From positions 1 to 6,363 of the forward strand of contig JAFGBW010000076.1 of assembly GCA_016932965.1 (NCBI GenBank): a stretch of 6,363 bases of DNA, given 5' to 3'. Positions 1,146 to 5,867 of this stretch are shown piece after piece. The notes beneath the pieces were generated by a model. It worked only from the letters and a program-made list of their open reading frames with translations. It made no database searches and was not told where the DNA came from. The stretch's first letter is position 1. Each line of letters starts with the position of its first letter. A program made the position numbers and the translations under genes. Source of the DNA: Candidatus Auribacterota bacterium. GTDB lineage: Bacteria; Auribacterota; JAFGBW01.

Positions 1146-1280
1146 TTTCACCACGCGGAGGACACGGAGAAAGCAGGCGAAACGCCTGTAATTTGAGATT
1201 TGAAATTTGTCATCTGAGATTCATCATGCCTTTGAGTCATGATGACAAACTCCGTGCTCTCCGTGTCCTCCGTGGTGAAA
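1146..1280. repeat. Nested palindromic intergenic element R1
   Basis: The outer arms are inverted repeats: TTTCACCAC..GGAGGACACGGAG from 1146 and CTCCGTGTCCTCCGTGGTGAAA ending at 1280, with two extra bases in the left arm. Inside are a short hairpin CAGGCG-AAA-CGCCTG (1174-1188), an AT-rich filler with ATTTGAGATTTGAAATTTG-type words, and a core hairpin TCATCATG (1221-1228)/CATGATGA (1238-1245). Order and orientation match R2. It fills the gap between the divergent pseudopilin and radical SAM genes. No coding capacity or transposase is seen. It fits a non-autonomous mobile or REP-like element. Confidence 0.75.
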
Positions 1281-1369
1281 AATAAGAATTTTTATATTAA
1301 GACAACCCGCGATGAAGCGGTTCACATTTTAAAACTGCCGGCGGTGGATTTACATTGTTTTATGATGTC

Positions 1370-1374
1370 AGGAG
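1370..1374 (+). promoter_or_regulatory. Ribosome binding site with long spacer
   Basis: AGGAG lies 12 bases before the ATG at 1387, longer than the usual 5-9. There is no in-frame start closer to it, and an in-frame TGA at 1363 prevents a longer protein, so 1387 remains the best start. Confidence 0.5.
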
Positions 1375-1386
1375 CACGATAACGCT

Positions 1387-2259
1387 ATGCCCCATCCCGT
1401 CTCAAGAGCGGTTTTGTCTGAACACGGCCGCGAATTCGGTCCGTATCGTTATGTCTATGCAGTCGTATCCAGGCGGAGCCAGGGATTGTCCATCGGGATC
1501 AATCTGAATCCGGACAAATCCTGCAGTTTTAACTGTGTGTATTGCCAGGTGGAAAGAAAAAATACCGCGAAAAAAAAGCCGGTCCGTTTTCCGGTATTGA
1601 TGAAGGAACTCCACTCCATTCTGGATCAGTATTTGAATGGATGCCTGCACTCTCATGAACGGTTTTCTTCGGTTACTGACAACAACTGGCTGAGCTTAAA
1701 GGATATCGCTATAAGCGGAGACGGGGAAGCGACCTTGAGCCCTTTCTTTAATCAGGCTGTTGAACTGGTGCTCGATCAGACAGAGCGGCTGAAAAAAGAA
1801 CACGCGATCAATGTGAAACCGGTTTTGATCACGAACGGAAGTAACTTGGGGAAAAGGAACATCAGATCAGCCTGTGAACGGTTGGTTCTAGGAGGAGGGG
1901 AAATATGGGTCAAGCTGGATTCGGGAAACGCAGATGATTTCAGAGAGATCAATCAAGGGAGCGTTCCTTTTCAGAGGTTTCTCAAGAATCTTTTTGATTT
2001 TGGGAAAACCTGTCCTTTGATCCTGCAGACCCTCGTATTTTCATTTCCGGACGGCCGGCTCTCTTTGAATCTCAACGATTATGTTTTACTCCTGCAGAAA
2101 GGCATCCGGGCAGGATTCAAGCCCCGGTCCATCCAATTGTATACCCTTGCCAGAAAAACAAGACTGCGTGATCTGAGGGCTCTTTCTGTTGCCGGACTCC
2201 AGGCCATGGCAGAAGAAATCAGAGAAAAAACGACCTGTTGTGTTGAAGTTTTTCCGTAA
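1387..2259 (+). CDS. Radical SAM protein, COG0731 (wyosine-synthase-like) type
   Basis: A 290-residue protein. Cys46-X3-Cys50-X2-Cys53 (CSFNCVYC) is the radical SAM signature that holds a 4Fe-4S cluster used to cleave S-adenosylmethionine. Before it stands LSIGINLNP, and QVER follows; this pattern is typical of the COG0731 group, whose best-known members are the archaeal TYW1 tRNA-wyosine enzymes. SGDGEAT (110-116) is the glycine-rich SAM-binding strand, followed by ITNGSN (148-153) and VKLDSG (175-180) as in the TIM-barrel core; LYTLARKT (251-258) is another family mark. No extra C-terminal Fe-S cysteine cluster is apparent (only Cys-Cys near the end), and no TYW1 flavodoxin domain. Bacterial members have no firmly assigned substrate, so I give no gene symbol. 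pyrG follows in the same direction after 39-87 bases without a visible terminator, so the two may share a transcript. Confidence 0.88.
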   Translation: MPHPVSRAVLSEHGREFGPYRYVYAVVSRRSQGLSIGINLNPDKSCSFNCVYCQVERKNTAKKKPVRFPVLMKELHSILDQYLNGCLHSHERFSSVTDNNWLSLKDIAISGDGEATLSPFFNQAVELVLDQTERLKKEHAINVKPVLITNGSNLGKRNIRSACERLVLGGGEIWVKLDSGNADDFREINQGSVPFQRFLKNLFDFGKTCPLILQTLVFSFPDGRLSLNLNDYVLLLQKGIRAGFKPRSIQLYTLARKTRLRDLRALSVAGLQAMAEEIREKTTCCVEVFP

Positions 2260-2346
2260 AGAAAAAAACCTGTTGATTAATTTTTAAAACAAGGCTTAAT
2301 GGAGTCACTTCATTTTTGGCTGATCCACTCCTTTGGGATGATTCAA

Positions 2347-4183: not shown

Positions 4184-4227
4184 GAAATATAATCAACAAT
4201 AAATGATATTGATGTGATGGCAGTACC

Positions 4228-5628
4228 ATGGATCTGATAAAAGAAGAATGCGGAGTAATAGGGGTATTCGGCGTGCCTCAGGCGTCGTATCTGGCGTATC
4301 AGGGGATTTATGCGATGCAGCACCGCGGACAGGAAAGCGCCGGGATTTTGTCTTCCTTCAATGGACAAATGTGTGTCTGGAAGGGCATGGGCCTTGTTTC
4401 TGAAGTTTTCCAGCATTTTGATTTTGATAAGCTCCCCGGCAGCATGGCCATAGCGCACAACCGGTATTCCACAACAGGAGGCAACCGGCTTTCCAATGCC
4501 CAGCCTCTCTGCATGGAGACCCGTTTTAACATGGTGGGTGTGGCCCACAACGGCAATTTGATCAATGCCGGGAAAATCCGGAAACAGCTCCAGAACCAGG
4601 GAGCGATTTTTCAGACCTCAACGGATTCGGAAGTGATCATTCATCTTTTGTCCAGAAACAGGGAAAAAACCTTTGAAGAATCACTGAAATCAGCCTTGTC
4701 AAAAGTGAAAGGCTCCTATTGCATCACAGCCATGTCGAACGGAAAACTCATTGCCGCAAGAGACCCATGGGGTTTCAGACCGCTTGTGCTGGGGAAGATC
4801 GGGACCGGATGGGTCATCGCAAGCGAAACCTGCGCATTTGATCTCATCGGCGCTGAGTATGTGCGGGAGATTGAACCGGGTGAAATCGTCATCATCACGG
4901 AAACAGGAGCGCGTTCCATTTACATGGACCGGAAAGAGCGTTCTTCCAGATGCGTTTTCGAGTACGTGTATTTTTCAAGGCCGGACAGCATCATCTTTGG
5001 ATCGAACTGCGACAAAATTAGAAGGGAAATGGGCCGGCAGCTCGCCCGGGAATCTCCCTGTCCGGACGCTGATATCGTCGTCAGTGTTCCTGATTCATCC
5101 AATACGGCTGCCCTGGGATTCAGCGAACAAAGCGGGATCCGTTTTGAGATAGGCCTCATCCGGAACCATTATGTGGGAAGGACCTTCATTAAACCTGATC
5201 AGTCGGACCGGTCGTTAAGCGTCAGGGTCAAGTTCAATCCCGTGAAAGGGGTTTTAAAAGGAAAAAAAATAGTTCTGGTGGAGGATTCCATTGTCAGAGG
5301 AACGACCCTGCAGGAACTCATCAAGCTCATGAAAGACCATGGCGGTGCAGGAGAAGTGCACGTCAGAGTCGCCTCTCCTCCGGTCAAAGCCCCCTGTTTT
5401 TTCGGGATCGATTTTTCCACCAAAAAGGAGCTCATCGCCTCCCGCAAACCCGTTGAGGAAATCAGGAAATTCATCGGGGCGGATTCCCTGAAGTATCTTT
5501 CCCTGCAGGGGATGCTGAATGTGGCTCCCGGCGGACAGGGAAAATACTGTTACGGCTGCTTCAGCGGCCGCTATCCCATGCCGCCCCCGAAACATTTCGA
5601 AAAAACCATGATGGAAAACTCCTGCTGA
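4228..5628 (+). CDS. purF: Amidophosphoribosyltransferase, Fe-S type
   Basis: Catalyses the first committed step of purine synthesis, PRPP plus glutamine to 5-phosphoribosylamine, in the cytoplasm. The protein has 466 residues, a normal length. The N-terminal Ntn-type glutaminase begins at Cys8 after a seven-residue propeptide (MDLIKEE), as in the self-processing Bacillus-type enzyme. HRGQESAG, HNRYSTTG (77-84), HNGN (107-110), TDSE (132-135) and RDPWGFRP (178-185) follow. The PRPP-binding loop is VLVEDSIVRGTT (349-360). Cys242, Cys390, Cys441 and Cys444 match the four ligands of the regulatory 4Fe-4S cluster of the B. subtilis enzyme; E. coli PurF lacks this cluster. The ribosome site is weak (TGATGG at 4215-4220), but the position of Cys8 supports the start. 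No other purine genes adjoin it. It lies between the inverted elements R2 and R3. Confidence 0.97.
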   Translation: MDLIKEECGVIGVFGVPQASYLAYQGIYAMQHRGQESAGILSSFNGQMCVWKGMGLVSEVFQHFDFDKLPGSMAIAHNRYSTTGGNRLSNAQPLCMETRFNMVGVAHNGNLINAGKIRKQLQNQGAIFQTSTDSEVIIHLLSRNREKTFEESLKSALSKVKGSYCITAMSNGKLIAARDPWGFRPLVLGKIGTGWVIASETCAFDLIGAEYVREIEPGEIVIITETGARSIYMDRKERSSRCVFEYVYFSRPDSIIFGSNCDKIRREMGRQLARESPCPDADIVVSVPDSSNTAALGFSEQSGIRFEIGLIRNHYVGRTFIKPDQSDRSLSVRVKFNPVKGVLKGKKIVLVEDSIVRGTTLQELIKLMKDHGGAGEVHVRVASPPVKAPCFFGIDFSTKKELIASRKPVEEIRKFIGADSLKYLSLQGMLNVAPGGQGKYCYGCFSGRYPMPPPKHFEKTMMENSC

Positions 5629-5665
5629 AATCAACTGGAAGCTGTTCAGGAAATGAGTCGTTAGC

Positions 5666-5686
5666 CTCCGCCGGAAGCGGAGATTT
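5666..5686 (+). terminator. Possible weak terminator after purF
   Basis: CTCCGC (5666-5671) and GCGGAG (5677-5682) form a perfect 6-bp GC-rich stem with a CGGAA loop, starting 37 bases past the purF stop. Only ATTTAAAA follows, so the U-run is poor. Placement is good; efficiency is doubtful. Confidence 0.35.
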
Positions 5687-5774
5687 AAAATGATGATTGG
5701 CTCAGAGCCTCATATATAAAGTCATTTAGCGAGGCGTGATCATGAATCATGTTTGGATATGAATAACATATTTG

Positions 5775-5867
5775 TTTACCACGGAGGACACGGAGAAAGC
5801 GCATCATGCCTATAAGGCATGATGACTCTCAAATTCCAGGCATCCACCTGTTCCCCTTCCCATTCTC
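5775..5867. repeat. Nested palindromic element R3, inverted and apparently truncated
   Basis: It begins TTTACCACGGAGGACACGG and contains a perfect 10-bp hairpin CATCATGCCT-ATA-AGGCATGATG (5802-5824). From 5813 to 5867 it is the exact reverse complement of 4092-4146. The whole stretch aligns with R2 reversed over about 92 bases, with differences only in the arm and hairpin. Beyond 5867 AATTCTTAATTCTAAATTGG matches the AT filler only loosely, and the second outer arm (CTCCGTGTCC..GTGGTAAA) is not found before 6199. An 88-codon open frame from 5806 lies on this repeat and is not credible as a gene. Confidence 0.8.

Follow-up and report, generated by a model that had tools for sequence, protein, structure and literature searches.

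Each of the three longest gaps between genes in the 6,363-nt stretch of Candidatus Auribacterota DNA analyzed here (the window) carries a palindromic repeat, which raises the question of what these elements (R1, R2, and R3) are and how they were assembled. The first-pass annotation proposed a single mobile, nonautonomous family with the same plan in all three gaps: conserved arms, variable filler, and an inner hairpin. R1 to R3 are degraded copies, and they probably belong to a composite nonautonomous intergenic repeat that was built by successive invasion of palindrome centers.

Arms of the ACCACGGAGGACACGGAG type and a hairpin of the TCATCATGCCTT type are present in three of three gaps (direct families D1, D3, D5, and D9; inverted pairs I1, I3, and I18), and the TCATCATGCC hairpin is common to R1, R2, and R3 (Table 1). 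R1 and R2 each have two arms, the left arm of R1 containing a 2-nt insertion (CACGCGGAG) and the right arm of R2 being short, with two units. The proposed plan thus applies to all copies as regards arms and hairpin but breaks down at the far end of R3 (position 5778 onward), in the sequence of which no right arm was found. Nor can the filler be called freely variable, since 66 nt of filler and hairpin are 95% identical between R2 and R3, in opposite orientation (inverted pair I1). Two more palindromes lie at window positions 47 to 87 and 113 to 152, beyond the 3' end of a prepilin-like gene, one with perfect 20-nt arms and zero loop (TGCAGGGAAAACCTTTTTTA / TAAAAAAGGTTTTCCCTGCA). Positions 6000 to 6110 hold low-complexity words (CTTAATTCTCAATTCTCAATTC; GGTGAATGGTAAATAGTGAATAGG) that recur elsewhere in the genome as filler between arms.

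Table 1. Parts of the three repeat copies in the window
Feature	Position	Strand	Evidence
R1 outer module A	1066..1147	+	Model R1 match, 62.9 bits, E 4.6e-17
R1 left arm ACCACGCGGAGGACACGGAG, 2-nt insertion	1150..1169	+	Sequence; repeat family D1
R1 inner block I, two hairpins: TCATCATGCC.. and GCAGGCG..CGCCTGC	1173..1246	-	96% identity to block I query, 74 nt, E 8.7e-29
R1 right arm, three 9-nt units, CTCCGTGCTCTCCGTGTCCTCCGTGGT	1250..1276	-	Exact arm match 1259-1276; sequence
R1 outer module B, short form	1280..1360	-	Model R2 match, E 4.4e-5; alignment
R2 outer module A	3960..4043	+	Model R1 match, 72.8 bits, E 3.7e-20
R2 left arm ACCACGGTGGACACGGAG	4045..4062	+	Arm match, one mismatch
R2 filler (block III), reversed in R3	4063..4133	+	Inverted pair I1, 95% over 66 nt
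R2 inner hairpin TCATCATGCCTTAGACGTATGATGAC	4134..4159	+	Family D5; sequence
R2 right arm, two units, CTTCGTGCTCTCCGTGGT	4163..4180	-	Inverted pair I18
R2 possible truncated module B remnant, adjoining purF start	4181..4225	-	By eye only (AATCAACAATAAATGATATTGATG); no model match
R3 outer module B, long form	5650..5773	+	Model R2 match, 68 bits, E 1.9e-18
R3 sole arm	5778..5795	+	Exact match; no reverse arm after
R3 inner hairpin CATCATGCCTATAAGGCATGATGA	5802..5825	+	Family D5
R3 filler, reversed in R2	5826..5885	-	Inverted pairs I1, I12

The genome, a 300-contig draft of 3.14 Mb that is 92.6% complete, contains 83 arm sites with up to two mismatches (45 forward and 38 reverse), compared with 0 + 0 in a reversed-letter control, and the arms are therefore not due to chance. 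R1 used as a DNA query gave 52 matches in the genome. The suggestion that the family is amplified in this genome, beyond the three copies in view, is borne out. Arms consist of TTTCACC followed by tandem 9-nt units (CAC[GG/GA]AGNN), starting with TTTCACC or ACC; they are ~18 to 27 nt long, with frequent mismatches. Neighboring arms are inverted (convergent) in 48 of 52 pairs, and the left and right arms share a word in 29 of 34 elements (expected 16; p = 5e-5) under a tolerant parse of the arm units, the strict version keeping 10 elements only. Template-switch correction between palindrome arms belongs to general bacterial genetics, and the agreement of the two arms fits such correction, by which the arms of one palindrome may have been kept matching. 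At one other site (L017, ~61 to 140), a tandem CACGAATAA word (ACCACGAATAACACGAATAACACGAATAA) adjoins a CACGGAG arm.

The element is layered, and the arms are its middle layer. Alignment of 111 arm sites revealed conservation beyond the arms as well, in two main clusters. Module A reads approximately TTAATTAATCCGGTAAACCACCGGCACAGCCTTTGGACTGGCAAAGTTTGACAATTCCGGAAGTATTTAAAA; module B occurs in two forms, a long one (GCCACTTTGAGTGGC..GAGGCTTTGAGCCGATAACC..AAGCCTCCGGCTCTGCCGGAGGTAACTGACT, read away from the core along the same strand) and a short one (AAACCGCGATGAAGCGGTTCACATTTTAAAGCCACCGGCTCTGCCGGTAGTATATTTACT). By eye, A and B bear just a loose resemblance to each other at their outer ends. Boundaries, which had been supposed to be conserved, are so on alignment, but the limits originally drawn cut the element midway because it continues into A and B. 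Sequence models matched A 93 times and B 71 times across the whole genome; as these models were derived from arm-adjacent copies, copies far from arms may be undercounted. Forty-five A-rc(B) close pairs have gaps of ~0 to 397 nt. No partner was found for 48 of the A and 27 of the B matches, so copies that are decayed or differently arranged are common. Four A-B copies lack arms and filler and two more hold a remnant or bare palindrome, the empty sites being paralogous rather than orthologous copies; most of the remaining A-B copies hold arm, filler, and arm. Of 43 extracted elements, 42 are intergenic, and the nearest long open reading frames (ORFs) lie a median of 23 and 33 bp away. A second outer flank pair, which is not A/B, surrounds CACGAAG-type cores at two loci (L084, 501 to 651, and L097, 380 to 518), so outer elements may not all be of one kind.

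The third layer comprises short blocks found in either orientation: block I (TCATCATGCC..GCAGGCG), block II (GAGTTATGAGT..), and block III (AATTGAGAATT..), with blocks II to IV recognized by eye. Block I is 74 nt long with two hairpins and has ~30 good copies, which are enclosed by arms of several words (CACGGAG, CACGAAG, CATGAAG, and CACTCC). The block II word (GAGTTATGAGTGTTGAGTTTTAAGTTTTGAGTTTAAAT..AACTCAAAACC) also occurs without CACGGAG arms at window positions 205 to 290, and block II is therefore not confined to palindromes. In comparisons of 666 element pairs, how alike the inner parts are does not depend on how alike the A modules are (rho 0.0003, p 0.99) and depends hardly at all on the B modules (rho 0.10); the closest inner matches lie about equally often in opposite and in like orientation. 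Block I copies are no more identical when they share an arm word than when they do not (p = 0.53). Inner similarity is thus linked neither to A/B nor to the arm word, which suggests that the inner blocks moved into preexisting palindromes with no tie to A/B and no visible tie to the arms.

Two other histories can be set against these comparisons. If a single composite A-core-B unit had been amplified whole, with later decay and loss of the middle in some copies, the core should hold a constant position relative to A and B, as it always does, and related copies should be alike in all parts, as one pair is (C43:9455 and C169:20806; A 0.87, B 0.91, and inner part 0.93). The other similar pairs, however, have inner parts that are 85 to 100% alike, in either orientation, with A and B at background (0.72 to 0.73), and other genomes contain the arms but not A. 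For the third layer, amplification as a unit is largely refuted by this independence of inner and outer parts, and as a whole it is very unlikely. The main rival is an exchange of cassettes between fixed palindromes, in which the arms that they have in common allow homologous recombination or gene conversion to swap and flip the contents and nothing transposes into loops. Contents shared without outer flanks and in both orientations would follow from it, and the arms do provide short homologies on both sides. Nevertheless, exchange should favor like arms, whereas block I identity ignores the arm word; the arms are short and often mismatched; and at least one copy of block I lacks any arms (C148, L366). 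Cassette exchange is accordingly regarded as unlikely, though it deserves more credence than any other alternative, and invasion of palindrome centers is preferred as the simplest account.

Folding is a further property of the elements. R1 folds far better than its shuffled versions, with z scores of -8.8 as DNA and -6.7 as RNA. No consensus base pairs were obtained with A and B aligned as wholes. The long B type, aligned alone, has three hairpins, the stems of which keep pairing through two-sided changes (22 double-changed cells versus 10.7 in shuffles; 84% paired cells versus 28 to 46% in slid controls). Together with the agreement of left and right arms, these compensatory changes indicate that the folded strand matters but alone do not prove an RNA role, so the covariation once sought as support for a folded RNA exists in the B hairpins without settling that function. 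A domesticated RNA (terminator, attenuator, or mRNA stabilizer), selected at gene ends and not spreading, would be consistent with the strong folding, the compensatory changes, and the tight intergenic position. It is nonetheless a rather improbable reading: no Rfam family matched the window above its gathering score, elements are flanked by genes in all four orientations (++, --, +-, and -+), and an RNA role would be compatible with a mobile origin in any case.

The search for a mover covered several candidates. The Y1/RAYT transposase (PF01797) had 0 matches in the genome, in a search whose control was positive in 5 of 14 genomes, and no DDE transposase (PF01609) was found in the genome. One intact IS110-type transposase gene (PF02371; L378, 1342 to 2370), the sole one in the genome, was rejected, as its flanks contain no arms or blocks. 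ORFs between arms in other genomes and in viral contigs had no likeness to transposases by eye. Compared with permuted flanks, target-site duplications were found neither at the outer ends (p = 0.34) nor at the core (p = 0.25). Of the signs of mobility proposed in the first-pass annotation, such duplications were thus not found, nor was a transposase with matching ends among the PF01797, PF01609, and IS110-type families searched in the draft. Its broader idea of a mobile nonautonomous family is partly supported, by the many copies, by the independent spread of inner blocks in both orientations, and by there being no autonomous copy in view. Movement by a Y1 tyrosine transposase, as a REPIN/RAYT or IS200/IS605-derived element, would agree with short-word inverted pairs that are intergenic and in high copy, with conserved hairpins at the outer ends, and with the precedent for REP dimers inside palindromes (PMC3733652). 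Given that PF01797 is absent here and detectable elsewhere, and that the arms are tandem 9-nt units rather than a stem-loop tagged with GTAG or CGTC, this origin is considered extremely unlikely.

The elements form at least three layers (A/B, arms, and block I), which differ in their range across bacteria, rather than the one family assumed. Module A had no match at E<=1e-5 in the 43 other genomes of the phylum, and by such sequence comparison the A/B layer belongs to this genome only, among 44. Full-length block I was likewise found in this genome only, two other genomes having just its middle, a TTTGAGATTTGAAATTT-like word, and the block appears essentially confined to this genome. The arms, by contrast, are present in several other genomes of the phylum, without module A. 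The exact 30-mer arm TTCACCACGGAGGACACGGAGAGCACGGAG has 33 sites in many phyla, Pseudomonadota and Planctomycetes among them: its hosts include Rhodocyclaceae, Burkholderiaceae, Telmatospirillum, Deltaproteobacteria, Acidobacteria, the isolate Desertibaculum subflavum, Pirellulales, Phycisphaeraceae, Verrucomicrobia, Anaerolineae, and Prevotellaceae. An inverted partner lies within 300 nt at 22 of the 33 sites and a direct partner at 0 of 33 (reversed-letter control, 0); palindrome loops are 12 to 220 nt, and 8 of 33 sites fall inside ORFs of >200 amino acids by a purely mechanical count. In another, distant genome of the phylum, a ~19-nt REP-like palindrome (CCTGCCTGYCGGC..) breaks the CACGGAG arm in two copies (L184 and L190) at the identical point, between CCACGGA and GGACAC. 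Other genomes of the phylum (L181 to L210) have tandem words of ~9 to 10 nt (CGCAGATNNN, CGGATNNNNA, CACTGAG, and CAGGATNNA) near CACGGAG arms, and these arm-like words may be parts of palindromes of this kind.

Carriage of the arms by phages was considered and set aside: 104 viral stretches contain the exact 18-mer and only 2 of them a convergent pair, and phages therefore do not stand out as the carrier. Only two plasmid records matched, each with a short match. No relevant paper on a cross-phylum palindrome of 9-nt units was found in the open-access literature. The CACGGAG/CACGAAG palindrome may tentatively be viewed, with more doubt than confidence, as an uncatalogued noncoding element of many phyla, whose 9-nt units change together in both arms, which persists with no dedicated transposase, and on which lineage-specific hairpin elements land.

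For the repeat in this genome, the preferred history of successive invasion would run as follows. A lineage-specific A...rc(B) element of ~170 to 200 bp would have settled tightly between genes; the arm palindrome would then have interrupted the AT-rich middle of this older element, and short hairpin blocks would later have filled the loop of the palindrome in either orientation. Spread may have been driven by an enzyme acting in trans, perhaps since lost, with a preference for hairpin or cruciform loops; the exceptional folding of R1 fits such targeting, were it to operate. If this history is right, much intergenic space is a stratified record of successive invasions by small elements, each landing on the previous one, and repeat models built on arms alone mix elements of differing age and origin. 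A noncoding 30-mer that is identical across several phyla calls for horizontal spread or strong constraint.

Nesting of small repeats within palindromes is already known. The small dispersed repeats of cyanobacteria, reportedly characterized by Elhai et al. in 2008 as very small, mobile, and found within other repeats, provide a lead, likened here by description; that study is cited in PMC3116915. Miniature inverted-repeat elements (MITEs), such as ERIC, NEMIS/Correia, and Nezha, are likewise short, noncoding, intergenic, and of high copy number with inverted repeats (overviews in PMC10969869 and PMC3733652), the inverted repeats here being those of the core arms, but neither a target-site duplication nor a related transposase (PF01797 or PF01609) was found. 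REPIN/RAYT systems share the inverted pairs forming a hairpin (48 of 52 neighbors; DNA folding z of -8.8), but the GTAG or CGTC tag at the stem-loop end was not seen by inspection. As neither target-site duplications nor a RAYT was found, no membership in either family is claimed. IS200/IS605-derived (PATE-like) elements invite comparison through the covarying B hairpins, though PF01797 is missing.

BOX, RUP, and SPRITE repeats of pneumococcus are inserted into one another (PMC3049150). BOX also combines conserved outer modules with a variable middle, as here (45 A-rc(B) pairs, 0 to 397 nt between), a likeness drawn by description, but its middle consists of tandem boxB modules, whereas the present elements have a palindrome of inverted arms there, filled by blocks unrelated to one another. 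Extragenic palindromes (REP) are hot spots for insertion sequences (PMC1525189); the inserts here are hairpin blocks of ~70 to 250 nt, not insertion sequences. REP dimers also lie inside longer palindromes in A. variabilis (GTAG-15), T. roseum (GTAG-23), and H. neapolitanus (CGTC-1) (PMC3733652), and in both cases a small hairpin element is regularly found within a larger palindrome. The present elements differ in having no GTAG or CGTC tag, by inspection, and no RAYT; empty outer copies exist, unlike in A. variabilis and H. neapolitanus, where REP-less palindromes were not found (PMC3733652), and the nesting extends to three layers with several arm words.
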